Positions 14,101-35,925 of a stretch of 49,575 nt of DNA are shown here, piece by piece. Position 1 is the first letter of the stretch, and each line of letters begins with the position of its first letter. A program made the position numbers and the translations under genes. Where the stretch lies: assembly GCA_002702895.1 (NCBI GenBank), contig PACX01000024.1, forward strand, positions 124,757 through 174,331. Direction: 5' to 3'. This DNA comes from Flavobacteriaceae bacterium (GTDB taxonomy: Bacteria > Bacteroidota > Bacteroidia > Flavobacteriales > Flavobacteriaceae). The notes beneath the pieces are model-generated. The model searched no databases and was not told where the DNA came from. It was given only the letters and a program-made list of their open reading frames with translations.

Positions 14101-15245
14101 TTACAGTAGTTGGACAACCAAAATATCAACAAATTATTGATGTTCAAATTATTGCTACTGATCCACCTGTTGCTTATGTTGTTGGTAAAATTGAAAACTG
14201 TGATGATGATGTTGATGGAGATGATACTAATGGTAAAGTAAACTTTGACACATCATCTATTTTAGATAAATTATTAAAGAATCCTTCTACAGGAATTTTA
14301 CAAGATAAAAACTTATTTGATTTTGAATTTACATATTATGATGAAACTACATCTGCTAATGTTACAAATGCTTCTCTTCCAAATCCTTTTTATTCTGCAT
14401 CTCAAACAGTATCAGTTAAATTTAAAAGTAAGATAAATGGAAAATGTGAAGCCAACCAAACCATTGATTTTGTAGTTAATACTCTTCCCCAAATTAAAAG
14501 AATTGAAGACACCAAAAGTGTTTGTACTAACTTGCCTCCAGTTACTATTGGAGTAACAAATGCAGATAATAGAAAATATACTTATACCTGGACAAGAAAT
14601 GGAACTAATTTTCCACCTAACATTACTGGAGTTGATAGTAGTATTCTAATTGGTTTGGGTGGTGAATATGTAGTAACTGCAACTACAAATGATGGAACTA
14701 ATTGTTCTAGGTCTATGAAAATAACAATGAAGGAATCTAGTATTGCTACTTTATTGAGAACAGATATTGTTATTAAAGATCTTTTAGCTGGTCCAAACAA
14801 TACTATAACTGTTAAAACTGCAACTTTAGGAATTGGGGATTATGAATATGCTTTAGATGATCAAACTGGACCTTATCAAGATGAGCCTGTATTTAATAAA
14901 GTTAGACCAGGAAAACATACTGTATATGTTAGAGATAAAAATGGATGTGGAGTTGTAAATATGGATGTCTGGGTTATTGGATATAAAAAATTCTTTACCC
15001 CCAATGGAGATGGTTACACTGATAAATGGAATATTATAGGTATCACAAAAGATTATCAAGCAAGATCTAAAATTTATATTTTTGATAGGTTTGAAAAACT
15101 TTTAAAAGAATTAGATCCTCTTTCACCAGGATGGGATGGAACTTTCAATGGTAAACCAATGCCTCAAACTGATTACTGGTTTAAAGTAATTTTAGAAGAT
15201 GGCAGAATGTTTAAGGGACACTTTAGTCTTATAAGAGCTTGGTGA
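8121..15245 (+). CDS. Giant T9SS surface protein with nested cadherin-like, propeller and C-type lectin domains
   Basis: 2374 residues with a signal peptide ending at LVFSQ. In order: a cadherin-like domain (about 22-125); a first block of FG-GAP/propeller-like repeats of the form NFGxxVSLSxDGxxxAVGxP (about 131-555); cadherin-like domains starting with PPVAxxQ or APVAxxQ and containing PxNGxLxDG and YxPNxxFxGxDSF; a C-type lectin domain (about 1170-1345) with EPN at 1296-1298 and WND at 1320-1322; a second propeller block (about 1499-1840); cysteine-bearing Ig-like domains; and a type B T9SS sorting domain from about 2290 with FFTPNGDGYTDKW. The last domain directs export and cell-surface attachment. 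EPN with WND is the calcium-dependent mannose-type sugar site, so adhesion to glycans is likely. Three inserted segments split cadherin-like domains; see the findings. Confidence 0.93.
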   Translation: MRKILFSLLFLFSGLVFSQTKPMASDVSAAHFKDTNGLIHLVGSDAEFNSLTYTIITLPSHGTLKDPNNSNSVVSAGGSLTGNSVTFVPDSEENHKYIFSGTNSFTYKVTDSDGDSDIKTVKVEVFDSYLNPPTAIGSEINGEGAGDNFGRAVSLSEDGTIMAVGAPFNDAGTTDSDKGSVRVYKLSSDSGWTKLGDDIDGTNDQDYFGSSVSLSGDGTILAVGIPYNDTANSNAGQVKVYQYDSANSTWNIMSTITPTIVSSGSNKAVSEQFGNDVRLSSDGKTLAVSDIWFDRSGGNNSGRVVVYRYDGTNWNSLGNETAIYGESGDNLSWGLSLSSNGNIMAVGVHDYSSNNKGQVKIFEYDSANTQWNVKETLLGDKSAEKFGAAVDLSSDGLIVAVGAPYHRVAGSGSEFVGKVSIYKWDGSNYTALGSDLIGSDKYDYFGAHLSLDNEGNTLAVMGPGHDANSGSSSGSYLNKGRVRVFNYDIASTSWIQSPVSYDFDGEADEDQSTGSNNESKGQRVFLSGNGSVLAIGADENDGNGTNSGHVRVYKLFQPQVIPVANSQDVSFTLYEQVTSTDEITLIGTDSDGNDIDLVYIITELNTAKLFEGGTEITSANIPHTLTANKIKYNSNSDVVVNDSFKFIVHDTKASSVPATVTLTIIPDNDPPVATGQSTTSDEDVAKDIDLAGTDVDNADTNLNFLIYSLPTNGTLTDKNNGNSAVTLVNKDSGTTTSANSDKLEDSSQNFTSTVIPGDFLINTTDNTYADIKAVDSDTTLSLSSDIMASGEEYTIKRGSSLVVSSGTAKVTYTPNSNFAGSDSFKFKARDKGVGDDELTDVENSVDAATVSITVNNTDNDPPVAQDQTLSTNEETETGTITLVAVDPDPNDTNLTYTIAVLPANGKLKDGGTEITTAGDISGALTYLPNANFSGNDTFKFTAKDDESTPAVSNQATVTINVGNLNDAPVATAQSVTVDEDTENDITHAGTDPDGDSLTYIIITLPAKGILKDNGTEIVSGDLPKTLSSAKATYIPQTNYNGADSYTFKVNDGTVDSTVAATVDITVKEVNDPPIANSQNLKTDEDTSLTVKFTGSDIENDPLTYLIKSLPSNGKLKDGNTEILSSELPKLLPADSITYVPNANFVGDDSFDFLVNANYLNSFTKANNLKYITQNGVPVTYQKPEGKTYFLIQENTGVSGSPIDWTTARTLTNSIKGAKMYVILNAQMELLVWNGLKSMGLTGKSGLYYWIGLYQDKTSPDYAEPGLETQNWGGWTWVDGVTLKDRGYQNWYNYPSEPNNAGAEDYAQFEFSSNGPDGIKWNDMSIGNAQSWPLFEFSISSSTQSAPAKISIKVESVNDAPVANAQTITTSEDVTTPAAITLTGTDPESQPLTYIVTAIPNNGTLKEGGTAITNVDLPKTLSGNALTYSPEPDYNGNDALTFKVNDGVNESASAIVSIIVNPVNDPPEADDQTVNTDEDVAVDITHVGRDKDLINIFTKHTQIGSNINLGNGWGEFIEISADGETMVIGGWTNNKVKVYGWNGTDWNQLGSDIDGSDSGDDFGEFVSISSNGKRIAVGAHKHDSNRGHVRAFDWDGTSWTEAGTEMEGSNTSDEQSYRGVHISGDGNAVAAASFKGGYVDTYKWDGTKWDKTGVISIPTGGGDSPGQVSLSVDGNRLAIGTGTYSGNKGQVKIFDWDGTNTWNQFTVIDGKNSGEKFGNTLSISRDGKKVAVGVNGAGSARVYDLSASTVTQVGTDINYGSGSAWRAISLSDDGNRIAIPILDQKIGVFDWDGSKWNQLGDDLGKPAGTPGLWGESLDMSGDGKTLVVGGHTGFIRAHKILNLTYIITSLPSNGILKEGAKTITASDLPFTLKDTDATYVPNSGFYGQDKYNFKLNDGKADSNIATVTINIKEFVLNLPLSNYKITTTETCKGFAYGIIDIEVTATSYKKTAAGPDIPITYNIAIQGKGQVGTIVSPNKTAQIKDLPEGTHKLIFTVVGQPKYQQIIDVQIIATDPPVAYVVGKIENCDDDVDGDDTNGKVNFDTSSILDKLLKNPSTGILQDKNLFDFEFTYYDETTSANVTNASLPNPFYSASQTVSVKFKSKINGKCEANQTIDFVVNTLPQIKRIEDTKSVCTNLPPVTIGVTNADNRKYTYTWTRNGTNFPPNITGVDSSILIGLGGEYVVTATTNDGTNCSRSMKITMKESSIATLLRTDIVIKDLLAGPNNTITVKTATLGIGDYEYALDDQTGPYQDEPVFNKVRPGKHTVYVRDKNGCGVVNMDVWVIGYKKFFTPNGDGYTDKWNIIGITKDYQARSKIYIFDRFEKLLKELDPLSPGWDGTFNGKPMPQTDYWFKVILEDGRMFKGHFSLIRAW

Positions 15246-18877: not shown

Positions 18878-21800
18878 TTATTCTAATACTTTAAAGTAAC
18901 CTGATTTACTTATTTTTTCATCATCAAGAGTAGTTCCATTAAAAAGGTAATAGTACACTTTTTCAGCATTATTTCTATTATCTCCTTTCCATCCTTTTAA
19001 TGTCACAATTTTCCTATAATCTTTTCCAACGTCAAAAGTTTCTTCATATAATTTGATTTGAGATATAGAAAAGACATTAAATTGGCCATTAATAAAGCCT
19101 CTAATAATAGGCCTAAAGCTATCGTTTATACCATCATTATTTGGAGTAAATGCATTTGGAACTTTAAACCAATAACCTTTTCCAATTAAAATAGTTTTTC
19201 TAATTTCTTTAAAGCAACCTTCAGGATTATAAATTCTTAGAGATATATTGTAATATCCTTCTTCTTTATAAGTAATACTAACATCTTGATCATTTTGTCT
19301 TAAAAAAGTTTGTTCTCCAGATCCATCTCCAAAATTGTATGAAACAGATGAATATTTTCCTATTGAATTATTTTTTAGAGTTATTTTTCTATTAAAAGGA
19401 ATTTTTCCAAAATCTTGTATTTCTAAATTTTGATTATCAAAAATTGAAAAACCAGGAATACCAACTCCTAAATTTAGGTTTAGCTTATACGTACAATCAA
19501 ATTCATTTTTTATTAAAAAATCAGCATCTCCAACTGGATTATCAATTTTTACACGATACAGAACATAATCTTCAGTTGTATTAATTTTAGTATAATCGAT
19601 TAATTCTTTATTATCATAAATGAAAATTATTTTTGTATCCCAAGGATTATTGATTTTTACATCTAAATAACCTGTTTCTTGTAAGCAAAGTTCATCATCA
19701 ATAACAGGTTCATCTATTATAAACAACTGCTCACTTATAACTTTATGAGTCTCGTTTTTTTGACAACCATTATTATCTACTATAACAGAAGTATAATAAC
19801 CTGGTAATAACTTGTCAATTTTTAATTGACCATTTATGAATTCTAATAATTTTCCATCTTTATCAGATTTATACCACTGTACTAAATAGGGTGCATTACC
19901 CCCGGATGGATTTATAATAATATCACCTAAATCACCTGTGCATGAGTAATTGGTAATAGTTGGATTCGCAGAAATAGGAGGAATACTTAAATCAAATGAT
20001 AATTTTTCACTTTCACATCCATTAGCATCTGAAATAATAAGATCATATATTCCAGGTTCTGTCACTTCAATTCTAGTTTCTTTACTAGAGAAATTTGGTC
20101 CGGACCAATTAAATTTATATTCATAATTTAAATTCTGATATTTTACACCACCTGTTGCACTAGAGGTAATATCTATTATTCCTAAATTTAGATTTGAATC
20201 ATTTTGTTCATCATGACAGGCAATATATTTTTCTATATAGTTTGTATTATCACTACTTTTTAATCTTAATTTTTCTTGATTAAGTATTTCAAAATTAATA
20301 GTTCTACATGCCCCGTTTTCATCAATTACTTTAAACTCTTTTGTTCCTAGATCAATATCCTTTATTATGTAACCATTTGATTCAAAAGAAATTTCTTTGT
20401 TAATAAAAATTTCTTTATCATCTAAATAAAACTTTAGAGGAAGAGAAGATTTATTATTTTCAATTTCAAAATAAAAACTGCCAAATCCATCATAACATTT
20501 AGGTTTATTACCTTCAATAATACCATTGTTGTTGGAATCAGTTGAGGATATATTAGCTAATTCAAATACTGGGTCTAATTCTTTAATTTCACTTGAAATT
20601 TCAGCTGTTTTACAATTAAAACTGTCAAATACAGAAATATTATATATTCCTTTTGTTAAATTTTCTATTTTATAATTTCCTTCTGAATCAGTATTGATTT
20701 CTTGAGATAAATTATTATTAATTAATATTCTATAAGGACCTGTTCCACCATTAATATTTATAACTAAACTACCTGTTGTTAATTCACAAACTATATTTTG
20801 ATGCTTCTCTGTTACTTCACTTAAAATCATCGGATTAGGATCCTTAATTTCAAATTTTTTCGAAATTAAACATTCGACTTTTTCCCCATCATTGAAATTT
20901 CTAAAATGTTTTGCTTTTATTTCAATAAAATAATTTCCTTTTGGAAGATTAGTGGCTTTTAAACTATTGTTACTTATTTGAATATTATTAAGACCAACAA
21001 CTGATTTAGTTATATTTCCTTCAATTTTATACCAATTTATAGTTTGATCACTATACATATTATCAAATAATCCATTTGGATAAATCTCATATTCTCCTAA
21101 CTCACCATCTACACAGACATTATCTTTTTTAGACACTTGAGTTATTTTTAGTTCTTGAGGTTCTTTTATAACTAAATTTGAAGAAATAGAACCACAAAAA
21201 TTAGTAACATCAGTAACATTAGCAAAAACATCTCCTTTACTTGTTCTGATTTTAAAATAACCAGCATTTGGGTTAGATTCTAGTTCCTTATAAGGTCTAT
21301 TTAGATTCCATTTAATTGAGTAGGGTGGTTTACCACCTGATACATTTACTGTTACTTCTCCATCATCACTACCAGTACAACTAGCATTTATTATTGATGT
21401 TTCTACATTTAATAATTTTTCAGGTTGTAATAGAGTTACTTTAATTGCTCCATTTACTTGATCAGTTGCATCATTAATTGATTCTGAAAATTTACAGTCA
21501 TTTGAATCATATATGTCAATATCGTAATTGCCGGCAAGCATGTTTTTAAATAAATATGAGTTGCCAGTTAAATTTTCTGCTACAACACTTCCATTAGAAA
21601 CAACTTTATATGGAGGAGCTCCTCCAGTAAAAAATATTTCAAACTCTCCATCATTTCCTCCATTACAACTAATATCAACATGTTTAGAAATGTTTTCAGA
21701 TGAGATTATTCTATCTTCTCTTTTTATCTGAAAAGATTTTGTAGAGATACAAGAAACTTCCTTAGCATTGACTATTGATTTTGCAGTGACTTCGATTTTA

Positions 21801-24800
21801 TAGAATCCATGAATTAAATTATTTAATTCTAATTTATCATTCCATTCACTAATTAATACATCATCTTTATACCATTTGGTTAAATAAGTAGCAGGATTTC
21901 CAGTCAACATTCCCCCTTGCAAATCAATCTTTATTTTACCATCTGCATAATCATAGCATTTTTGATTTTCAATTTCTTCAATAATTATATTTACTTTTTC
22001 AGGTTCTCTAATAGTAAAATCTTGAGTAAAAGTTCCACATTTAGCATCTTTATCTTTTATTGTTAATTTATAATCTTTTTTATCTAAACCATCAATTATA
22101 TAATTATTAACTGCATTAACTAATGTTCTTTCAAACTTATAATTAGTTCCCTCTAGTAGTATTGAGTATGGAGCTCGTCCTCCGCTAATTGAACCTATGT
22201 CAATACTACCATTCTTTTCTCCAAAACATTCTACATCATAATAAAGAATATTAGAAATAGAAAATGCCTCAAGTTCACCTACAGTTATTTCGTCAGAAAT
22301 AAATTCACAATTATTATTATCGATTATTTTAATTTTATATTTTCCTGTATTTAATCCCGTAACAGTACTTGTGAACCCAATTGTGGCTTGTTCTGATGCT
22401 TTTCCACCTTTAATTCCAGTATTTGAAATAACGTTATTTTCATTAATTATATAAACTTTATATGGAGCAGTACCATGTTTAATATTAAACTTTATTTCTC
22501 CTTTTGAAGAATTAAGGACAGCATCTTTACAAGAATCAACAATTTCCTCAACTTTGAATGCAATGGGAGCAGGTTGAGTTATTTCAAATACATCTGTTTC
22601 AATACACTTTTCATTATTTCCAATAAAATTGACAGAATATCTACCCTCAGCAAGATTATCAAGTGTTAGATTACTATTTTGATTTATTACTCCCTGTGTA
22701 ATAATTGTCTCATTAAATATTAACTCATATTTATAAGTTTTATTTCCTAAAACAAAAGGAGTGCCTCCTCTAATATTTGTATATGTTACTGATCCATCAT
22801 TGGCAGGAGTGTCTAAATTAACACAAGAAATATTTTTAACTGTTTTGCTATCCCAAAAGACTTTATTAGATATATATATTTGTTCTTCAACAATACAACC
22901 AATTTTATTTGAATCATTACTTTCTAAAAAATCCCTTTGAGTAACTTGAATGAGATAATTACCATCTACTAAATCTTCTATTGTAAATTCTTGATTTTTT
23001 ATAATATCATATGATTTGTCAAAATTAGCAGAAGTTAATTTTACCTTGTAATATTCATTAAGTTCATCATTTAGAAATGTATCACCATCATTTAATTTTA
23101 AATTAAGTTTACTTTTTTCTGCCTCACAATCACCTAAAATATTATAGTCAATTATTAATTTTGAACTTGGCTGGAGAACTTCTGGTTCTAAAATTATGGT
23201 TTTACAATCATAGTAATCAGTAATTTCAAATTTAACTTTACCAGCTGGCAATCTTAATTTTGATATAACTTTTGAGTTTACTCCTTTTCTTCCAAAATAT
23301 AAGTATTCTCCCGCATCATTAATTTTGACTTTATATGGAGCAGTCCCACCTTGAACTGCAATTTCAACTCCTCCTTTGGCATCTCCATAGCAAATATTAT
23401 TTGTTATACTTTGTAATGATGCAGACATTTCCGTTGGTTCCAAAATAGTAAAATCAAATTTTTGTGAACAGGGGCCCTGAGTTACAGTTAAACTATAGTC
23501 ACCTGGATCTCCTAAGTTTTCTATATCTTTTTGATTACTTGTAAATCCATTGGGTCCCAACCAACTATAAGTGAAAATTCCTGTACCATCTCCACCTGTT
23601 AATGCTGGTTTTATATATCCGGTATTTTCTCCATAGCATTTGATATCTTGTAATGCAATATCAGGATTAGTAATTTGAATAGGATCATTTCCTAATATTC
23701 CAACAATAACGGGATTTGATGTGCATCCATTAGCATCTATTGCATAGAACGAGTATCCTTTTTTTATTAGATTATCAACTTTAAACTCATCATTATTATC
23801 TACAGAATTTCCTCTATTAGTTGCGATTAGTTGATCATTTAAGTAATATGAGTATGGTCCTGTTCCACCAGCAATTTTAATGTTGAATGATCCATCTTTA
23901 TCACCTGGACATGTTTCAGGAACAATATTAAATGGCGTATCTATTATAAGTTCAGAAACTGAATCTACAATAATATCAGAACCATAAACATATTTAACAT
24001 TTTCTTTATCAACTACTTCAACTTTATATGTTCCAGATGAAGTATTTAAAATCTTACTAGCATCAGATTCCGCGCTAACGGCAATATATTCCCCTAAATC
24101 ATTTTTTTGAAACCAATTGACAGTATAGGGTTCACCGTAACCACCTTGAAAATCTATTGTAATTGTACCGTCTTTTCCTCCAAAACATTTTGGTTTTGTT
24201 GTTGTAATTGATGTAAATGAAAAATCTGTAGGAGTTTTAATATCAAATTCCTTAGTTAAGGAACAATCATTATCATCTTTTATTATAACAGTATATTTTC
24301 CAGGAGATAAATTGCTTATATTTTTATTTGTTGAAGAAAAATTATTTGGACCACTCCAATCATAGGTGTAATTACTATTTGCTCCAATTGTTCCTCCAGA
24401 AACAGTAAATTCTATAGAACCATCTTTAGCATCGTATTTTGAAACATTGGTTAATTTTTCATTTGTAATATTAATTAAGAATTCAGGCTCAGAGATAGAT
24501 ACCTGAAAGTTTTTTGAGCAATTTTTAGAATCTATAACAGTAATATTATAGAGTCCAGCTTTTAAATTATTTTGAACTAATTGATCTGTATTATCGTTAA
24601 TGTTTCCAGATTGAGATTTTAATAATTTATCATTGATATAATATGTAAAAGGTGCTATTCCTCCAACAATAGAAATTGTAAAACTCCCAGTTGAATCATT
24701 TTTACATTTTATATCTGTCTTATTAACTAAACTAATATTAGTAGAGGAGGAGGGTTCAGTAATTTCTATAGTTTTAATAGGATAAACATTATTATCAGAA

Positions 24801-27655
24801 TCAGAAATTTTTAGTTTATATATTCCAGCTTTAACATTATTTAAAATTGAGCTAGTTGATAATAAAATATCATTTTGATCTAACCATTCAATTGTGTAGG
24901 GAGCTCCGGATCCTCCTGAGGGCTTAGTTTCAATTTTTCCTGAGGATTCTCCCCAACAATTTATTTGTGTAATCGAAATGTTGTAATTAAAGTTTGAGCT
25001 CAGTTCTAATATAAATTCTTTTTTTAATTCACATCCTTTTGAATCTGTGACTGTTAGCAAATAAGTTCCAACATCTAAATTTGAGATATCTTCATCTGAA
25101 CTACTGAAATTTAACCCAGTCCAGCTGTAGGTATAATCTTTTGTACCACCATCTATTTCAATATCAATTGCCCCATCATTTAAACCATCTTTTGGGTTTG
25201 TTATATTAAAGTTTTTTAAATAAAGTGCATTTTCAGGTTCGGTAATCTTTTCATTTAAAATATTAGAACTACATCCATTATTATCTAATACTTTTAAAGA
25301 ATAATCTCCAGATTTTAAATTACTTACTTTAAAAACTTCTTTTTCTTTTAAACCTGTCTTTATTACTTGATTATTTAAAAATAAGGTATATGGAGCTGAT
25401 CCTCCCTCATTTATTATGTTTAGATATCCGTCACTATATCCAACACACGATATTTCTTTATTAATATCTGAATCTAATTGAATTAATAATTCTTGGGTTG
25501 GTCCTGTTACTGTAATTGGATCTGACTCAAATATATTATTGTCTATATCACTTACTGTTACTTTATACTTTCCAGCTGCAATATTTGATAAAACTTTTGG
25601 ATCATTATCATTATCATCATAATTAGACCATGTATTTCCTAATAATTTTTCCCACGTAATTGTATATGTTGGTCCAGCTCCTCCTTTTGGATCAATTGAA
25701 ATTTTACTTAAATCTCCAAAGCACAATATTTCATCTGGAAAAGTAATATTCATTTTAAATTCAGGATCAAGAATTTCAAAATTATGTGTATTTATTGAAA
25801 AGAATATATTATCCGTTGGCTGAACTCTTATTCTAGCTTTTTTAGTTCTACTAACTAATGGTATGGTAACTTTTTCAAAACCATCATTATCGGTTGATTC
25901 AGAAAGTTTAACTGGAAAAGTATAACCCCCATCATATGATAATTCAATATTAACTTTTACCGTTTCTGTTGCAGCTAAGTGATTCCATCTTACTTCAATT
26001 TCTTTTTCTTGATGATATTTTAAGTCTTTAACATGTTGACTTAAAACCATAAACACCCCATCGTCAGAATATTTAGTTTGAATAAAAAAGTCATCTTGTA
26101 AAACACTCCCTCCGTTAGTATTATTATCCCTAACAGTAAAGGTGAAATTTAAATTTCTACTTAACTGGGGAACGACTTCCCATTCATTTGCAGTTTTTCC
26201 AGAAAGTATTGTTTCAATATCAGGAAAATATCTTACTTTTTGGTTGTCAGGAAATAGAGAGATAAAAGTTGGTCCTTTAAGACTTGTATTAAGTGGAGGG
26301 TTAACAGTTATTTCATAAGCATCCATTTGATCCCAATTAAATAATAAATCGGTATAATTATTATTTGCATCAGTAATTTCAAATGTTTTACCCAGAGCAA
26401 AAGGAGTTCCTGCTGGAATTGAAAATGACTTCTTTGCAGGATCTGATACATATTTAGGCAGATCATTATTTTGATTTGTTAAGAATGAACCACAGCTAGC
26501 ATTTTTGACTGTTTGACTAATTTCTTTAATAGAAATTGCATGGTAATATAGGTTTCGTTCTTTTCTTTCACCATATCCCATTATTGTAGCACCAGCTGCC
26601 GTTTCGACCATATTTCCATCTGCTCCATATCCTTCAGCATTGTTGAATGTGTGTACTGCTCCAAGCATGTGGCCTATTTCATGCGCAAAAACAAAATGAA
26701 ATCCAAGACCACTATATCCTCCTGAAGTTCCTCTAGCTTTTCCGCCAGAGCATATTACTCCTACACCTGCCAAACCACCACCACCAGCATAAAAGGAATG
26801 CCCTATGTCAAAATTATTAGCTCCAATTCTGTTTATAATAATTTGATGTCCCTCATTAATTGTTTTAAACTTATCTCCATTAGTTAAACCATCACTATTT
26901 GTATCAAATTCTATTAAATCTTGGACACCAAAAACAAGTTCAAAAGTTAATCCTAAATCACGTTCTGTAACTGTGTTCAGTGCAGAAACTACAGTTCCTA
27001 TTTCAGCAAGAACAATTGCCTTTTTAAAATCATTGTCTTTGTCTTTAGCGTCATAAAGATCTACAAAATAGTTTGACCATTCTGCAGTTGTAACAATAGC
27101 TAGTCTGTATTTTTTAACTTTTGGACTAAATGAAATTGTAGATAGACTTTGTTCTCTAAAATTTTTTTTTTGATCATGATCATGATGATCAATCATATCA
27201 TCAAAAATGTCTGATGTTTTTATTTTTTCAATCTCTATTCCAGAGTTAAGAATAAATATATTTTTGTTTTTTGAGTTAATAAGAACATATTTTTTGTAAT
27301 TATCAAGAATTGTGATATTTACTCTTTGATCAATTATAGAAATAAAAGCTTTTTTGTTACTCTCATTAGATTGACCAGTAAAAATTTCTATTTGAGAAAA
27401 TTTTTCACTTAATTCTTTTGAGAATGGATTTTGCTTATAAAAGGTAAATTTTTCAAAAATTCTTCCATCAATTGGCAAACTAATTTCAATTCCCTTTAGA
27501 GGTTTAGATGACTCTGATAAAGAATTTTTTAAATTATTGTAAGATGTTTGATAATGATATTTATTTTCAGTGTTTAAATCTTCTCTTGATTCCCAATTAA
27601 TATTCTGGGAAAATATAAAGAATGGAATCAGTAAAAAAAATAATTTTAATCTCAT
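18878..27655 (-). CDS. Giant secreted metalloprotease with SprB repeats and type B T9SS sorting domain
   Basis: 2925 residues. A signal peptide ends at FIFSQ, followed by a propeptide-like region to about residue 180. A metzincin-type peptidase domain comes next, with HEIGHMLGAVH placing His325, Glu326, His329 and His335, and a likely Met-turn in TIMGYGER. From about 655 to 2640 there are some 20 SprB-type repeats, each with a core like GGTAPYxxxxN or GGxxxYxYxW followed by LxxGxYxxxVxDxxxC. A PKD-like piece with YNFGDGSGEQTF lies near 2775. The end is a gliding-motility-type C-terminal domain (VPNAFTPNNDGINDSFRP, about 2830-2925) used by T9SS. The protein should be displayed at the surface or released, combining proteolysis with a long adhesive stalk. 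The reprolysin/M43-like family assignment rests on the zinc motif. Confidence 0.93.
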   Translation of the reverse strand: MRLKLFFLLIPFFIFSQNINWESREDLNTENKYHYQTSYNNLKNSLSESSKPLKGIEISLPIDGRIFEKFTFYKQNPFSKELSEKFSQIEIFTGQSNESNKKAFISIIDQRVNITILDNYKKYVLINSKNKNIFILNSGIEIEKIKTSDIFDDMIDHHDHDQKKNFREQSLSTISFSPKVKKYRLAIVTTAEWSNYFVDLYDAKDKDNDFKKAIVLAEIGTVVSALNTVTERDLGLTFELVFGVQDLIEFDTNSDGLTNGDKFKTINEGHQIIINRIGANNFDIGHSFYAGGGGLAGVGVICSGGKARGTSGGYSGLGFHFVFAHEIGHMLGAVHTFNNAEGYGADGNMVETAAGATIMGYGERKERNLYYHAISIKEISQTVKNASCGSFLTNQNNDLPKYVSDPAKKSFSIPAGTPFALGKTFEITDANNNYTDLLFNWDQMDAYEITVNPPLNTSLKGPTFISLFPDNQKVRYFPDIETILSGKTANEWEVVPQLSRNLNFTFTVRDNNTNGGSVLQDDFFIQTKYSDDGVFMVLSQHVKDLKYHQEKEIEVRWNHLAATETVKVNIELSYDGGYTFPVKLSESTDNDGFEKVTIPLVSRTKKARIRVQPTDNIFFSINTHNFEILDPEFKMNITFPDEILCFGDLSKISIDPKGGAGPTYTITWEKLLGNTWSNYDDNDNDPKVLSNIAAGKYKVTVSDIDNNIFESDPITVTGPTQELLIQLDSDINKEISCVGYSDGYLNIINEGGSAPYTLFLNNQVIKTGLKEKEVFKVSNLKSGDYSLKVLDNNGCSSNILNEKITEPENALYLKNFNITNPKDGLNDGAIDIEIDGGTKDYTYSWTGLNFSSSDEDISNLDVGTYLLTVTDSKGCELKKEFILELSSNFNYNISITQINCWGESSGKIETKPSGGSGAPYTIEWLDQNDILLSTSSILNNVKAGIYKLKISDSDNNVYPIKTIEITEPSSSTNISLVNKTDIKCKNDSTGSFTISIVGGIAPFTYYINDKLLKSQSGNINDNTDQLVQNNLKAGLYNITVIDSKNCSKNFQVSISEPEFLINITNEKLTNVSKYDAKDGSIEFTVSGGTIGANSNYTYDWSGPNNFSSTNKNISNLSPGKYTVIIKDDNDCSLTKEFDIKTPTDFSFTSITTTKPKCFGGKDGTITIDFQGGYGEPYTVNWFQKNDLGEYIAVSAESDASKILNTSSGTYKVEVVDKENVKYVYGSDIIVDSVSELIIDTPFNIVPETCPGDKDGSFNIKIAGGTGPYSYYLNDQLIATNRGNSVDNNDEFKVDNLIKKGYSFYAIDANGCTSNPVIVGILGNDPIQITNPDIALQDIKCYGENTGYIKPALTGGDGTGIFTYSWLGPNGFTSNQKDIENLGDPGDYSLTVTQGPCSQKFDFTILEPTEMSASLQSITNNICYGDAKGGVEIAVQGGTAPYKVKINDAGEYLYFGRKGVNSKVISKLRLPAGKVKFEITDYYDCKTIILEPEVLQPSSKLIIDYNILGDCEAEKSKLNLKLNDGDTFLNDELNEYYKVKLTSANFDKSYDIIKNQEFTIEDLVDGNYLIQVTQRDFLESNDSNKIGCIVEEQIYISNKVFWDSKTVKNISCVNLDTPANDGSVTYTNIRGGTPFVLGNKTYKYELIFNETIITQGVINQNSNLTLDNLAEGRYSVNFIGNNEKCIETDVFEITQPAPIAFKVEEIVDSCKDAVLNSSKGEIKFNIKHGTAPYKVYIINENNVISNTGIKGGKASEQATIGFTSTVTGLNTGKYKIKIIDNNNCEFISDEITVGELEAFSISNILYYDVECFGEKNGSIDIGSISGGRAPYSILLEGTNYKFERTLVNAVNNYIIDGLDKKDYKLTIKDKDAKCGTFTQDFTIREPEKVNIIIEEIENQKCYDYADGKIKIDLQGGMLTGNPATYLTKWYKDDVLISEWNDKLELNNLIHGFYKIEVTAKSIVNAKEVSCISTKSFQIKREDRIISSENISKHVDISCNGGNDGEFEIFFTGGAPPYKVVSNGSVVAENLTGNSYLFKNMLAGNYDIDIYDSNDCKFSESINDATDQVNGAIKVTLLQPEKLLNVETSIINASCTGSDDGEVTVNVSGGKPPYSIKWNLNRPYKELESNPNAGYFKIRTSKGDVFANVTDVTNFCGSISSNLVIKEPQELKITQVSKKDNVCVDGELGEYEIYPNGLFDNMYSDQTINWYKIEGNITKSVVGLNNIQISNNSLKATNLPKGNYFIEIKAKHFRNFNDGEKVECLISKKFEIKDPNPMILSEVTEKHQNIVCELTTGSLVININGGTGPYRILINNNLSQEINTDSEGNYKIENLTKGIYNISVFDSFNCKTAEISSEIKELDPVFELANISSTDSNNNGIIEGNKPKCYDGFGSFYFEIENNKSSLPLKFYLDDKEIFINKEISFESNGYIIKDIDLGTKEFKVIDENGACRTINFEILNQEKLRLKSSDNTNYIEKYIACHDEQNDSNLNLGIIDITSSATGGVKYQNLNYEYKFNWSGPNFSSKETRIEVTEPGIYDLIISDANGCESEKLSFDLSIPPISANPTITNYSCTGDLGDIIINPSGGNAPYLVQWYKSDKDGKLLEFINGQLKIDKLLPGYYTSVIVDNNGCQKNETHKVISEQLFIIDEPVIDDELCLQETGYLDVKINNPWDTKIIFIYDNKELIDYTKINTTEDYVLYRVKIDNPVGDADFLIKNEFDCTYKLNLNLGVGIPGFSIFDNQNLEIQDFGKIPFNRKITLKNNSIGKYSSVSYNFGDGSGEQTFLRQNDQDVSITYKEEGYYNISLRIYNPEGCFKEIRKTILIGKGYWFKVPNAFTPNNDGINDSFRPIIRGFINGQFNVFSISQIKLYEETFDVGKDYRKIVTLKGWKGDNRNNAEKVYYYLFNGTTLDDEKISKSGYFKVLE

Positions 27656-27724: not shown

Positions 27725-28504
27725 TTATTTTTTCTTTTTGAATGGAGATGCTTTTAGATGTTCAATAATTGAATTTTTAGCAATAAAGAAAGCTACTAAT
27801 AAAGTTACAAATCCACCTATCCAAATGCCAGGAATATTTTCTAAGAATAAGAAATAATCATAAAAGGCATGAAAAATAATAGGTATTAATAATGATAAAA
27901 ATAAGTATGTAAACTTCTTTTTATTTTCTGTTTTAGCTTTTCCTAAATAATAACCCATTATAACAGCAAAAACAAAATGAGCGGGAACTGCTGAAAGCAT
28001 TCTTAATATTGCTAATGATGCTGAACCTTGCATTACAAAAGCTAAATTTTCTGCCGTAGCAAATCCCATTCCTACAAAAACAGCATATACTATTCCATCA
28101 AAGGGTTCATCAAAATTCTTATTTGGATATAAAATTAAAATTACTACAAGAAATTTTAATAATTCTTCAGTAATAGAAACGGAAAGAGCTTCTTCTCCAA
28201 CTCTTATAAAATTATTTTCAACATTTATATAACTAAATAAAAATTCTAAAATATCAACATCTAAATGTAAATTCATAGCTCCAAATATGAATGCAATTGC
28301 TAATAACCATAATGGTTCTTTATTATATTCATCTAAAAAATATATTAAAACCATGATAAATATACCAGGGGAAATTGAAAGAGTGACTAATAATAAATCG
28401 AACCAGTCAAACCTATTGATTAAAATTAAAGGATAAAATAATGCTAAATATAAAGCTGTTATAATTGCTGATGCCCCAAAACTATTTATTAAAAGTTTTT
28501 TCAT
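27725..28504 (-). CDS. PrsW family intramembrane metalloprotease
   Basis: 259 residues with about seven hydrophobic segments. LIYFLDEYNKEPLWLL near the start, SITEELLKFLVV, FDGIVYAVFVGMGFATAEN, PAHFVFAVIMGYYLGKAK and IPIIFHAFYDYF are the ordered conserved blocks of PrsW-like proteases. In B. subtilis PrsW cleaves an anti-sigma factor. The two Glu of the EExxK block and the later His residues are presumed zinc ligands or catalytic residues. The gene starts three bases after the stop of the gluzincin-barrel fusion gene, so the two are co-transcribed. The local substrate is unknown. The 27656-27724 gap before the next minus-strand gene is AT-rich, with no clear hairpin. Confidence 0.88.
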   Translation of the reverse strand: MKKLLINSFGASAIITALYLALFYPLILINRFDWFDLLLVTLSISPGIFIMVLIYFLDEYNKEPLWLLAIAFIFGAMNLHLDVDILEFLFSYINVENNFIRVGEEALSVSITEELLKFLVVILILYPNKNFDEPFDGIVYAVFVGMGFATAENLAFVMQGSASLAILRMLSAVPAHFVFAVIMGYYLGKAKTENKKKFTYLFLSLLIPIIFHAFYDYFLFLENIPGIWIGGFVTLLVAFFIAKNSIIEHLKASPFKKKK

Positions 28505-31589: not shown

Positions 31590-31622
31590 AAAAAAGGAGA
31601 AAATATTATTTTCTCCTTTTTT
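31590..31622 (-). terminator. Intrinsic terminator after the nonapeptide-repeat gene
   Basis: GGAGAAAAT at 31596-31604 pairs with ATTTTCTCC at 31608-31616 around a three-base loop, and flanking A and T runs lengthen the stem. On the minus strand the stem is followed by about ten T residues. It lies 21 bases past the stop of the repeat-protein gene and before the next minus-strand gene, so it should end that transcript. Confidence 0.85.
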
Positions 31623-31642
31623 AGTAATATAAATATTATATA

Positions 31643-32869
31643 TTAAAAATCAGCTGACATCATAGTTTTTTGAAAATCAGGAGCAGCTAACATTTTTTGG
31701 AATTCAGGTGCAGCCATCATTTTATGAAAATCAGGTGCGGCTAGCATTTTCTGAAAGTCACCAGAAAGTGCAAGTTTTTGGAATTCAGGTGCAGCAAGCA
31801 TCTTTCCAAAGTCAGCAGAAAGTGCAAGTTTTGCAAATTCAGGTGCAGCAAGCATCTTTCCAAAGTCTGCAGAAAGTGCAAGTTTTTGGAATTCAGGTGC
31901 AGCTAACATTTTTCCAAAGTCTGCAGAAACTGCAAGTTTTGCAAATTCAGGCGAAGCTATCATCTTTCCAAAATCAGGTGCAGCAAGCATTTTACCAAAC
32001 TCAGGTGCAGCAAGCATCTTTCCAAAGTCTGCAGAAAGTGCAAGTTTTGCAAATTCAGGTGCAACTAACATTTTACCAAACTCAGCAGAAAGTGCAAGTT
32101 TTGCAAATTCAGGTGTAGCTAACATCTTTCCAAAGTCTGCAGAAAGTGCAAGTTTTGCAAATTCAGGCGAAGCTAACATTTTACCAAAGTCAGCAGAAAC
32201 TGCAAGTTTTGCAAATTCAGGCGAAGCTAACATCTTTCCAAAGTCAGCAGAAAGTGCAAGTTTTTGGAATTCAGGTGCAGCAAGCATCTTTCCAAAGTCT
32301 GCAGAAAGCGCAAGTTTTTGGAATTCAGGTGCAGCAAGCATCTTTCCAAAGTCTGCAGAAAGTGCAAGTTTTGCAAATTCAGGTGCAGCTAACATCTTTC
32401 CAAAATCTGGTGCAGCCATCATTTTTTGAAATTCAGGTGCAGCTAACATCTTTCCAAAGTCAGCAGAAAGTGCAAGTTTTTGGAATTCAGGTGCAGCAAG
32501 CATCTTTCCAAAATCTGGAGAGAGTGCAAACATTCTAAATTCAGGAGCTACCATCATTTTTTGAAATTCAGGTGCAGAAATCAATTTTGCAAATTCTGGA
32601 TTTGCGATCATCTTTTGGAAGTCTTGATTATTAAGAAGTTCTTGAACTTCTTCACCGTCAAGATCAACTACGACATCACTTCTGTTGTCGTATTTTTCGG
32701 CCTTTTTAACGCCTTTAATTGCTTTAATTCCAGAACTTGAAAGATCTGAACTATTAAAGTCAATTGCTTCTGATTGTACTAATAAGTATCCTAAGACACC
32801 AATTACCAATACAACCGCCACGATTAAGAAATTTAATTTACCATGGACTTTGTTTGTGTGTTTACTCAT
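31643..32869 (-). CDS. Membrane-anchored nonapeptide-repeat protein of unknown function
   Basis: 408 residues. A short basic N-terminus (MSKHTNKVHGK) precedes one membrane helix at about 13-31, so the rest should face the periplasm. A linker to residue 77 contains an acidic VVVDLDGEEVQE segment. Residues 78-408 are 36 complete 9-residue repeats plus a truncated last one. Two unit types mostly alternate, MLAAPEFQK (or AK) and LALSADFGK. Phe at unit position 7 and Asp or Glu at position 6 are present in all 37 units, and Lys at position 9 in 35 of 36. The first five and last five units are more varied than the middle. S/A-x-D/E-F suggests repeated helix caps. I recognise no family. The gene stands alone between a promoter-like element and a strong terminator. 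Confidence 0.9.
   Translation of the reverse strand: MSKHTNKVHGKLNFLIVAVVLVIGVLGYLLVQSEAIDFNSSDLSSSGIKAIKGVKKAEKYDNRSDVVVDLDGEEVQELLNNQDFQKMIANPEFAKLISAPEFQKMMVAPEFRMFALSPDFGKMLAAPEFQKLALSADFGKMLAAPEFQKMMAAPDFGKMLAAPEFAKLALSADFGKMLAAPEFQKLALSADFGKMLAAPEFQKLALSADFGKMLASPEFAKLAVSADFGKMLASPEFAKLALSADFGKMLATPEFAKLALSAEFGKMLVAPEFAKLALSADFGKMLAAPEFGKMLAAPDFGKMIASPEFAKLAVSADFGKMLAAPEFQKLALSADFGKMLAAPEFAKLALSADFGKMLAAPEFQKLALSGDFQKMLAAPDFHKMMAAPEFQKMLAAPDFQKTMMSADF
31646..32638 (-). repeat. Coding tandem repeat, 27-base unit with a 54-base higher-order unit
   Basis: The DNA of the repeat protein is itself a tandem array of 27-base units, 36 complete and one partial. In the middle (roughly 31750-32500) pairs of units repeat as a 54-base block. 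Typical plus-strand wording is GCAGCAAGCATCTTTCC followed by AAAGTCTGCAGAAAGTGCAAG, with few differences between copies. Near identity at third codon positions implies recent duplication or gene conversion rather than old divergence. Some pairs break the alternation, around 32410-32440 and 31970-32010, where two units of the same type are adjacent. Confidence 0.9.
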
Positions 32870-32932
32870 AATTATTATTTTAATTAATTATTTCCCAAAC
32901 AACTAAACTGTTGTAAAGCCTAACTACTCTAG

Positions 32933-32966
32933 TTAGTGGAGCAAATATAATGAAAAAAAAATATCC
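32933..32966 (-). promoter_or_regulatory. Promoter-like element for the nonapeptide-repeat gene
   Basis: Read on the minus strand this is GGATATTTTTTTTCAT then TATATTTG (plus coordinates 32942-32949) then CTCCACTAA. TATATTTG matches the TAnnTTTG minus-7 box of Bacteroidota promoters exactly. It lies about 75 bases from the gene start, leaving room for a leader with two small hairpins. No good minus-33 TTG is at the expected spacing. Confidence 0.45.
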
Positions 32967-33112: not shown

Positions 33113-34591
33113 ATGTATTACATTGGATATGATTTGGGAAGTTCATCTTTAAAAATTGCATTAACTAATGCAACTAATGGAGAAAAGATTTTTATAATTC
33201 AAGAACCTAAGAAAGAGATGGACATTATTTCTAAAAGAAATGGATGGGCAGAACAAGATCCAAACTTTTGGTGGAAATGTATATGTAATGGAACTAAAAG
33301 AATAATTAAAGAATCTAAAATAGACTCAAAAAAGATTCTTGCAATTGGAATTTCTTACCAAATGCATGGACTAGTTTTAATTGATAAATTTGGTGAGGTT
33401 TTAAGAAATTCAATTATTTGGTGTGATGATAGAGCTGTTGAAATAGGTAATAAAGCTTTCAATGATATTGGTATCAAAAAATGTAATGAAAATTTACTTA
33501 ATTCACCTGGAAATTTTACGGCTTCTAAATTAGCATGGGTTAAGAAAAATGAGCCAAATGTCTATGATAGAATTTATAAATTTTTACTTCCCGGAGATTT
33601 TATTGCATACAAATTTACGGGAGAAGTACTTTCTACACCAAATGGACTTTCTGAGGGAATGTTTTGGGACTTTAAAGAAGGTAAAGTAGCAACATGGTTA
33701 TTAAAATATTTTGGTATTAGTGAATCTTTAGTGCCCTCAATAGTAGAAAATTTTAATGATCAAGGTTATATTAATAAAAAAGCTTCTTTAGAAACAGGCC
33801 TTCCAAAAGGAATACCTATTAGATATCGTGCTGGAGATCAGCCAAACAATGCTATGTCATTGAATGTTTTAAATTCAGGGGAAATAGCAGCTACTGGTGG
33901 AACATCTGGTGTACTTTATGCATTAACTAAAAATATTAAATCAAAAGAATCTTTGAGGATAAATAATTTTGCTCACGTAAATTATTCAAAAGAGAATCAT
34001 ATTATTGGAAAATTGTTATGTATTAATGGATCAGGCATTCAATATAAATGGCTTAGGAATTTAACTAAAAGTATTTCATACAATGAAATGAATCAAATAG
34101 GATCTGGAATAAAAGTTGGAAGTAATGGATTAATTGTTTTCCCTTTTGGAAATGGTTCAGAAAGAATGTTTGAAAATAAAAATATTGGAAGTACAATACA
34201 TAATTTAAATTTTAATATTCATTCAAAACCACATTTAATAAGAGCATCTCTTGAGGGAATTGCTTTTTCATTTATCTATGGAATGGAAATATTGATTAAT
34301 GATAATTTAAATCCAAAATTAATTAGGGCAGGAAATGATAATTTATTTCAATCTGAATTATTTTCAACCACAATAAGTACTATATTAAATAAAGAAATTG
34401 AAATTCATGATGTTTCAGGTGCATATGGAGCTTCAAGAGCAGCAGGTTGTAATGATAAAGATTTTAAAAACTTTTCAGAAAATATTAGTAAAAACGATTA
34501 TATAAAAACTTTTTTCCCCTCCCATCAAAATAATAAATACCTAGATGCATATGAAGAGTGGAAAATAAAATTAAATACAATTTTAAATTAA
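33113..34591 (+). CDS. xylB: Xylulokinase
   Basis: 492 residues, normal for the family. It phosphorylates D-xylulose to xylulose 5-phosphate with [18 protein letters not shown] is the N-terminal phosphate-binding motif of FGGY kinases; [25 protein letters not shown] and [10 protein letters not shown] are the xylulokinase-type segments that separate it from glycerol kinase. The C-terminal stretch [11 protein letters not shown] corresponds to the family's late adenine-site segment. Xylose isomerase follows five bases downstream. The 243-base gap upstream, shared with the divergent repeat-protein gene, holds a 10-base palindrome ACCAATTGGT at 32986-32995 that could be an operator, but nothing ties it to a regulator. 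Confidence 0.94.
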
Positions 34592-34596
34592 AAATT

Positions 34597-35925
34597 ATGG
34601 TACTAATTGGAAACAAAGAATATTTCAAAGGAATAAAAGAAATAAAATTTGAAGGGAATAAATCCAAAAATCCTTTTGCATACAAATACTATAATCCAGA
34701 AAAAATTATTGCTGGAAAAACTATGAAAGATCATTTTAAATTTGCTGTTGCTTATTGGCATTCTTTTGGTGGTGACGGTTCAGACCCTTTTGGTCATGGA
34801 ACTCAAGTTTTTCCTTGGGATTCATCAAATGATCCAGTTCTAGCAGCAAAGGATAAAGCTGATGCAGCATTTGAATTTATATCAAAAATGGGATTTGAAT
34901 ATTTTTGCTTTCACGATTTTGATCTAATTAAAGAAGCAGATACTCTTAATGAATCAGAACAAAGGTTAATTACAATCACTGAATATATTAAGGAAAAGCA
35001 AAATAAATCTGGAATAAAGCTTCTTTGGGGAACTGCCAACTGTTTTTCCCATCCTCGTTACATGAACGGAGCTTCAACAAATCCTGATTTTAATGTTGTA
35101 GCTAGGGCTGGAGGACAGATTAAGTTGGCTTTAGATACAACAATAGCTCTTAATGGAGAAAATTATGTTTTTTGGGGAGGAAGAGAAGGATATATGTCTC
35201 TTTTAAATACTGATATGGCTAGAGAATTAGATCATATGGCACAATTCTTAACTATGTGTAGAGATTATGCAAGAAAAAATGGATTTCAAGGAAATTTTTT
35301 CATTGAACCTAAACCTAGTGAACCCTCAAAACATCAATACGATTTTGATACTGCAACTGCAATAGGATTTTTGAAAGAATATAACTTAGATAATGATTTT
35401 AAAATTAATATTGAGGTTAATCATGCAACTCTAGCTCAACATACTTTTCAGCATGAACTAACAGTTGCGGCTAAAGCGGGTATGTTAGGTAGTATAGATG
35501 CAAATAGAGGAGATTATCAAAATGGATGGGATACAGATCAATTTCCAATAAACATTCAAGAAACTACAGAAGCAATGTTGGTTTTTTTAAAATCAGGAGG
35601 CTTACAAGGTGGAGGTGTAAATTTCGATGCTAAATTGAGAAGAAATTCCACTGATAGAGAAGATCTTTTTTTGGCTCATATTGGAGGAGCAGATACATTT
35701 GCAAGAGCATTATTGATTGCAGATAGATTAATTTCAGACTCACCACTACCATCGATGCTTAAAAAAAGATATGAATCTTTTGATTCAGGTAATGGAAAAG
35801 AATTTGAAAAAGGAAATCTAAAATTAGATGATCTTTATCAAATTGCTATTCAAAGTGCGGATATTAAAGCTGTAAGTGGAAAACAGGAATTAATGGAGAA
35901 TATATTATTTAATTACGTAAGATGA
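34597..35925 (+). CDS. xylA: Xylose isomerase
   Basis: 442 residues from the ATG at 34597. An earlier in-frame ATG at 34558 lies inside xylB and adds residues not typical of the family, while [20 protein letters not shown] matches the usual N-terminus. It interconverts D-xylose and D-xylulose. FCFHDFD contains the catalytic His106, WGGREGY is conserved, [16 protein letters not shown] carries metal ligands, and [15 protein letters not shown] and GSIDANRGD complete the active site. The order xylB-xylA means the pathway from xylose to xylulose 5-phosphate is complete here, but no xylose transporter or regulator is present. The 114 bases after it hold a weak hairpin and the next gene's promoter-like element. 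Confidence 0.96.

Follow-up and report, generated by a model that had tools for sequence, protein, structure and literature searches.

A predicted helical nonapeptide-repeat protein encoded beside a probable outer-membrane protein with metallopeptidase motifs and a PrsW-family protease in Bacteroidota-type bacteria

The window analysed here, a stretch of 49,575 nucleotides from a Flavobacteriaceae bacterium (contig PACX01000024.1 of GCA_002702895.1), carries on its minus strand a gene for a protein built of tandem nine-residue units (the array gene), followed directly downstream by a gene for a larger protein (the partner) and then by prsW (Table 1). The assignment of the third gene comes from Pfam (122.7 bits versus a cut-off of 23.5), with NCBIfam model NF033739 also matching under its own cut-off.

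Table 1 Features of the array locus, with one motor-like gene from a relative. Positions refer to the window unless another locus is named.
Feature	Position	Strand	Basis
Nonapeptide-array gene, product 408 aa	31643..32869	-	Open reading frame and translation; relatives in other genomes
N-terminal membrane helix, residues 13-31	32777..32833	-	AlphaFold2 helix (low local confidence); apolar segment in alignment A1
Linker and conserved junction (IKGVKKAEKYDN...VVVDLD)	32657..32776	-	Alignment A1
37 nine-residue units (1 diverged first, 36 regular), then a cut unit ending at Phe408	31646..32656	-	Unit counts; one short helix per unit in the model
Terminator-like hairpin between array gene and partner	31590..31622	-	16-nt perfect inverted repeat and T-run
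Conserved 5' leader: GTTGTTTGGGAAATAATTA and two small hairpins (32899-32914, 32920-32936)	32885..32936	-	Alignment and consensus fold
Partner gene, 1017 aa	28508..31561	-	Sub-cut-off Pfam matches, AlphaFold2, Foldseek, motifs in homologues
PrsW-family intramembrane protease gene	27725..28504	-	Pfam PF13367
MotA/TolQ/ExbB-like gene, genome G028	L051:10192-10494		32.4 bits, cut-off 22.9

Only a membrane helix and a linker, both seen in alignment A1 (11 array-protein sequences), stand before the array, which reaches the last residue and leaves no C-terminal globular domain. The initial annotation had proposed a single N-terminal membrane helix, and the apolar helix does fit one membrane span; it is preceded by a short basic N-terminus, and judging from these charges an N-in/C-out orientation is expected. 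Counted in a register that places Phe at position 4, the array opens with a diverged unit (GEEVQELLN, residues 72-80) and continues with 36 complete units in which position 3 is acidic (36/36), position 4 is Phe (36/36) and position 6 is Lys (35/36), in agreement with the repeat counts given earlier for this protein. Phe thus recurs every nine residues 37 consecutive times between residues 84 and 408 (once in each of 36 complete units and once in the cut unit at the end), compared with runs of at most five at this spacing in 2000 residue shuffles. Of the 37 units of the window protein, 19 begin with Asn, Ser, Thr or Asp and 17 with Ala, and 23 have Pro at position 2. At the DNA level TRF reports a period of 54 bp (14.9 copies, 83% matches, score 1004), and two plus-strand open reading frames within the array (31708-32118 and 32146-32538) were taken as repeat shadows.

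Array proteins were matched in 8 of the 22 genomes of the window's own genus, in 5 of 199 genomes sampled from its family and at nine loci of the GTDB collection, and profile A1 matched the own genome alone in an order-level sample of 395 genomes. That the repeat might be an assembly artefact, a concern raised at the outset, is answered by these relatives, because other genomes and other assemblies carry orthologues whose units differ in sequence and number (about 13 to 45). The FRAM18 assemblies contribute two members, on contigs 857,809 and 496,987 bases long, and for these assemblies the pertinent passages of PMC8254474 and PMC9122927 report PacBio HiFi and Illumina data, in terms that do not tie a platform to the two contigs; a term search of the accessible text of the two papers found bin219 in neither and bin141 absent from PMC8254474.

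Twelve members, including one from a second family (L046), could be counted in full once contig-end fragments (L008, L010, L015, L022, L028, L031 and L032) were omitted. They hold 25 to 45 units whose sequences vary by lineage, with exactly 37 units in 6 of the 12, spread over two genera; L029 and L030 are less regular, their counts being forced into register, and L030 has a non-repeat stretch. In the second family, where units were estimated from protein length, 9 of 17 loci (two genera) have 31 units, one has 36 and seven have 13. The unit number is therefore steady inside groups and ranges from 13 to about 45 overall, which suggests some constraint and yet speaks against one fixed ruler. 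The 13-unit proteins belong to a single genus of the second family (L079-L086, array seen in 7 of 8 loci), where a shrunken array protein of about 176 residues with an irregular middle stands beside a full-length partner as a natural minimal form.

Within the window protein the mean unit-to-unit identity is 0.53. Between the window protein and L038, identity at the same index (0.27) barely exceeds that at other indices (0.25), so that units are homogenised inside lineages with the hydrophobic rule retained; the paralogues L038 and L039 of one genome, by comparison, share 0.69 at the same index and 0.39 otherwise. This genome, G588, carries the array-partner pair in two paralogous copies (L038 and L039/L053). 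In each of ten regular members at most one unit lacks a hydrophobic residue at position 4 and at most two lack one at position 7, a pattern that holds even in members of about 30% identity.

Modelling of the array protein with AlphaFold2 (alignment A2, eight relatives drawn from the 12 fully counted proteins) predicted 37 short helices for the 37 units in addition to the helix at residues 13-31. Model confidence is modest (mean pLDDT 57.6, pTM 0.44; about 60-70 over the array and below 50 before residue 80), making a fold of one short helix per unit plausible and consistent at that level with the stacked short helices in a single-pass membrane protein suggested before. The companion suggestion of an 18-residue period producing one uniform face of Phe and Lys does not hold, as nine residues make 2.5 turns and successive Phe residues would face opposite sides, and a continuous amphipathic helix of that period was rejected on the same geometry and on the break in the model at every unit. 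The 18-residue moment of the window protein (0.18, versus 0.29 in column-permuted controls) is low because any nine-residue period cancels itself, the permuted controls being low too. Within units, the helix moment of the window protein is 1.34, a value attained by 13% of column-permuted controls; the corresponding fractions are 18% for L027, 2% for L046 and 0.3% for L038, so that intra-unit amphipathicity is clear in L046 and L038 and a mere tendency in the window protein and L027. Foldseek comparison of the model with solved structures gave nothing at E <=0.001 among 38 matches. The best of these was a designed helical repeat fibre, 8g8i (E 0.029), an artificial protein whose TM-score to the array model (0.26) is not significant, and TAL effectors came next.

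The repeat had initially been called unrecognised, and this stands in so far as no Pfam or NCBIfam family matches it convincingly; it does not stand entirely, since the STI1/HOP DP family recurs below threshold. The window array scores 23.2 bits against STI1-HOP_DP (PF17830; cut-off 29.1), and this profile matches 10 of the 11 members scanned (L039 was missed; E up to 1 or up to 0.1, depending on the member set), exceeding the cut-off in L006, L024, L027 and L038, with L022, cut at a contig end, being 99% identical to L038. STI1-HOP_DP is also the profile that the short members match most often (in 6 of 7, with a best E of 2.1e-5), although most of these proteins share 86-95% identity with the first of the set. 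Natural 12-unit segments score 33.3 bits (L027) and 11.5 bits (L046). Among eight column-permuted arrays a single STI1 match appeared, at 11.4 bits, and because unrelated families match these permuted arrays with scores of up to 32.4 bits, the scores and E-values of arrays must be regarded as inflated. When whole genomes were scanned with the STI1 profile, the array gene ranked first in 4 of 6 genomes (E 0.013 to 0.12, one of these matches exceeding the cut-off), second and third in G588 and unlisted in G603, and sub-threshold matches to the profile also arose in 9 of 14 control genomes. No solved STI1 structure was found among the 38 Foldseek matches, for a model of modest quality and a target family whose structures are small and flexible, nor in profile searches of PDB sequences with the array, and the short members gave nothing significant in the latter search.

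Resemblance to the STI1/HOP DP domains of Sti1/Hop, Sgt2 and ubiquilin lies in the predicted short amphipathic helices, the helix-breaking prolines and an apolar side rich in Met, Leu and Phe. In passages on these domains, PMC8010706 describes them as flexible hands in which prolines separate five amphipathic helices and a hydrophobic groove receives clients, and the STI1 domain of Sgt2 as methionine-rich. In contrast to STI1 domains, which have about five helices and occur in cytosolic eukaryotic co-chaperones, the array comprises 13-45 tandem equal units behind a membrane anchor, and the array protein has none of the TPR or ubiquitin-type domains to which STI1 domains are linked. We conclude that the two have a local pattern in common, and common descent is not claimed.

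Other matches were rejected. Homology to coagulation factor V was suggested by phmmer (1.6e-32), but the match weakened to 4.6e-4 when 18 diverse array segments were combined into a profile, and its alignment lies on SP[DE]; it is therefore read as a shared period, the factor V B-domain likewise containing tandem nine-residue units with S-P-D/E. Matches of arrays to Pfam Spermine_synt_N, Myotoxins, BNR_6, HgmA_N and others, and to NCBIfam hmgA, TPR_END_plus and MoCo_extend_TAT (L038 exceeds the cut-offs of the latter two), were considered repeat noise because column-permuted arrays match equally strongly, and this noise weighs on the STI1 match as well. The RTX motif, a Gly/Asp-rich calcium-binding nonapeptide, is absent from the unit consensus, and no RTX family occurs among the Pfam matches. 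RTX repeats share the nine-residue unit with the array, but form a calcium-binding beta-roll according to the relevant part of PMC6891781, whereas the array units are predicted to be helical.

The partner begins with a signal-like N-terminal helix and continues with a peptidase region, a predicted TolB-like beta-propeller and predicted C-terminal long beta-hairpins. Motifs of the MA clan of metallopeptidases (HExxH with a downstream Glu ligand) occur as HELVH at 117 and WLHEG at 168, and both HExxH and WxHEG are present in 27 of the 27 partner homologues checked. In Pfam the region matched Peptidase_MA_2 at 26.5 bits, under the cut-off of 32.4, and Lactonase also stayed under its cut-off. The propeller block was modelled with pLDDT of about 58-89, and its best Foldseek match is TolB (1c5k, 2e-9, 268 columns), with further propeller proteins close behind (6e-9 onward), so that the prediction of a propeller is firm and 'TolB-like' is a best-hit label. 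Much of the peptidase region and of the barrel is poorly modelled. Residues 642-1016 are predicted at low confidence as long beta-hairpins resembling an outer-membrane barrel, a C-terminal Phe occurs in 7 of the 27 homologues, and the partner is probably an outer-membrane barrel protein. A partner profile (A3, built from ten partners of which four are partial) found nothing significant among PDB sequences. Outer-membrane barrels bearing a periplasmic TolB-like domain are described in the passages of PMC12204202 that deal with them, and the partner shares their layout of N-terminal domain, TolB-like propeller and predicted C-terminal barrel. It differs in having MA-clan peptidase motifs where those proteins are described with a Rossmann fold, and a nonapeptide companion is not mentioned in the same passages.

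Conservation of the gene order was followed from both genes. Overall, the DNA upstream of the partner could be read at 29 loci, mostly from two families, and in all 29 the array gene immediately precedes the partner; these loci include 12/12 readable loci of a first set (G000, G002, G003, G010, G012, G016, G017, G025, G028, two loci in G588, and L030), several of which were initially found via the array gene and one of which, G012, has its array known just from fragments on two contigs, and 17 loci of the second family that were not found in this way. In the sample of 199 genomes from the own family, the partner was detected in four, all of which also have the array gene, and in the fifth array genome (G082) the contig ends there. 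Within the genus, 8 of 22 genomes have the array gene and eight the partner, seven being common to both; the exceptions lie at contig ends (G006, an array fragment alone, and G013, the partner alone).

The second family was reached through the partner. A class-wide profile search (395 genomes) returned four matches, namely the own genome, G603 from another family and two weak hits over short stretches, and the gene upstream of the G603 match proved to be a 31-unit array. When the G603 partner was searched in 295 genomes of its family, 23 genomes matched, of which 18 hold full or near-full partner homologues (about 50% identity or more, four genera). An array protein is encoded upstream in 17/17 of these loci with upstream DNA (L084 lies at a contig edge), and PrsW downstream in 17/17 with downstream DNA, including L072 (L074 ends). 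PrsW also follows the partner in the first-set loci that are readable there. Six distant partner homologues (L087-L091 and L098, about 20-30% identity) were seen in addition, five of them with visible upstream DNA and no array gene in it; for most of the six the downstream DNA cannot be seen, and one further match, the seventh, came without a locus. From sequence comparison, a wider partner family thus seems to exist without the array.

The strong terminator claimed for the array gene was confirmed as a hairpin with a perfect inverted repeat. Hairpins are present in the gap between array gene and partner in 12 of 12 loci folded, with stems that differ between relatives, and in the second family 11 of 17 loci have a perfect stem and T-run, the other six having none under the same strict test (L069, counted among the 17, and L046, counted among the 12, are the same locus). 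Such a terminator-like hairpin suggests that more array than partner mRNA would be made. The sole Rfam match, a sub-threshold hit of a plastid 3'UTR family on the terminator, was taken as noise. The promoter-like element also reported was not confirmed, with 19 such sites between 27600 and 33200 versus 30 expected by chance. Nor is the view that the gene is expressed alone supported, as a conserved trio begins with the array gene, though the terminator-like hairpin precedes the second gene. On the 5' side, a leader word stands just before the array start in 7/7 genomes (0 or 1 mismatch), all chosen for carrying the array gene; when 2 mismatches are allowed, a second copy turns up elsewhere in one genome, and a reversed control pattern matches in 3/7. 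The two leader hairpins show two-sided change in 4 of 13 pairs, with a covariation term that is slightly unfavourable. Word and hairpins are kept across the own genus and one further genus, and possibly serve mRNA stability or translation.

The conservation of an STI1-like array next to two proteases points to the capture of clients for proteolysis in the envelope, and the reading that we tentatively rank first is that a periplasmic helical array captures clients for, or docks, an outer-membrane protease. The array would be anchored in the inner membrane and face the periplasm as a series of short amphipathic helices, one per nine residues, many of them opened by an N-cap-type residue and a proline and with Phe 4 and Leu/Met 7 as their apolar side. 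It would be the dedicated companion of an outer-membrane protein with a metallopeptidase domain and a TolB-like propeller, both being encoded with PrsW. Like a string of STI1 'helical hands', it could hold unfolded or hydrophobic segments of envelope proteins and present them to the metallopeptidase, with PrsW acting on the inner-membrane side, and the trio would then form an envelope quality-control module. The proposal is that the array may work like an STI1 domain, not that it is one, and a role as spacer or scaffold is possible. The patchy occurrence of the array (1/395 genomes of the order sample and 5/199 of the family) is odd for general quality control.

Ranked second, and rather unlikely, is that the array serves as a TolA-like periplasmic rod linking the inner membrane to the propeller of the partner, for coupling or positioning and with no client binding. 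In the parts of PMC12204202 concerned with this system, TolA is described as connecting the inner membrane with Tol-Pal, and TolB is said to derive perhaps from outer-membrane barrel proteins with a TolB-like domain. The array protein is like TolA in its inner-membrane anchor, its long helical part, expected in the periplasm, and a gene adjoining that of a protein with a TolB-like propeller; array length is also steady inside groups, with 37 units in 6 of 12 members and 31 in 9 of 17 second-family loci. Unlike TolA, however, it has no globular C-terminal domain after the array (domain III in TolA) and is built of nine-residue units, not long helices. A fixed distance between membranes would disallow a range from 13 units (7 of 17 second-family loci) to about 45, unless the rod were flexible. 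The conserved trio comes without a TolQ/TolR motor or Pal gene, which accompany TolA, part of its neighbours having been scanned with Pfam. The MotA/TolQ/ExbB-like gene that follows prsW in G028 is the one motor-like gene among ten scanned (nine from relatives' flanks and one from the window); more frequent occurrence would suit a motor-coupled tether, but the gene is present in just one of the flanks examined.

The constant presence of PrsW after the partner, in the 17/17 readable second-family loci and the readable first-set loci, could also mean that PrsW, the metallopeptidase or both cut the array protein to release or destroy it, the array being a sensor or decoy. The anti-sigma factor RsiW is a single-pass N-in membrane protein, the orientation expected here. 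We regard such a substrate role as distinctly unlikely, however, as the cytoplasmic tail of about 12 residues is too short for a signalling domain, the conserved trio includes no sigma factor, and the array is far more elaborate than cleavage needs. The STI1-like pattern could, by analogy, alternatively point to self-association, in which the array would drive clustering or condensation at the membrane, as reported in parts of PMC13083955 and PMC13083928 for STI1-driven self-association and as for the STI1 domains in Dsk2 and ubiquilin-2; this is highly unlikely, leaving the fixed protease partner unexplained. Neutral repeat growth without a function of its own, or an artefact, is hardly credible, for although units are homogenised inside lineages (window/L038, 0.27 versus 0.25), the hydrophobic positions 4 and 7 hold in ten regular members, the array gene stands beside the partner in all 29 readable loci and unit number is steady inside groups.

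If client capture and proteolysis by this module work as proposed, they would represent an undescribed way of handling envelope proteins in some Bacteroidota-type bacteria. With some doubt, the nonapeptide alpha-solenoid, with a helix for every nine residues, may be a natural architecture of its own; in these bacteria it would act in the periplasm as an adaptor, anchored in the inner membrane, that supplies a TolB-like metalloprotease of the outer membrane or holds it in position. If so, Tol and Ton would be joined by another layout for coupling across the envelope, or the ubiquilin-type shuttle would have a counterpart in the periplasm. For a natural helical repeat the unit would be unusually short, and the array could serve studies of repeat evolution and design because its unit number and sequence vary while partner and gene order stay fixed, and the trio context gives an otherwise 'hypothetical' protein a named, testable partner. 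No description of the nonapeptide repeat or of the trio was found among the matches listed in the literature searched, with subscription journals mostly outside that search, and the array is placed among the helical repeats, in a gene context found undescribed.

Beyond the trio, the window and its relatives carry several further genes. After prsW on the minus strand (18878-27655) lies a gene for a 2925-residue protein that combines a reprolysin-like metallopeptidase with numerous SprB repeats and an end resembling CHU_C (sub-cut-off), a homologue of which occupies the same place in L025, with other genes there in L026 and L029. Divergent to the array gene on the plus strand (33113-35925) are genes for an FGGY sugar kinase and a xylose-isomerase-like protein (PF01261, sub-cut-off), a pair that also occurs in L024, L026 and L028. 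Elsewhere in the window, a plus-strand open reading frame of 2374 residues (8121-15242) has relatives that adjoin prsW in L026 and L029, and its relative in L052 combines Ig/cadherin-like repeats with a Por secretion tail.
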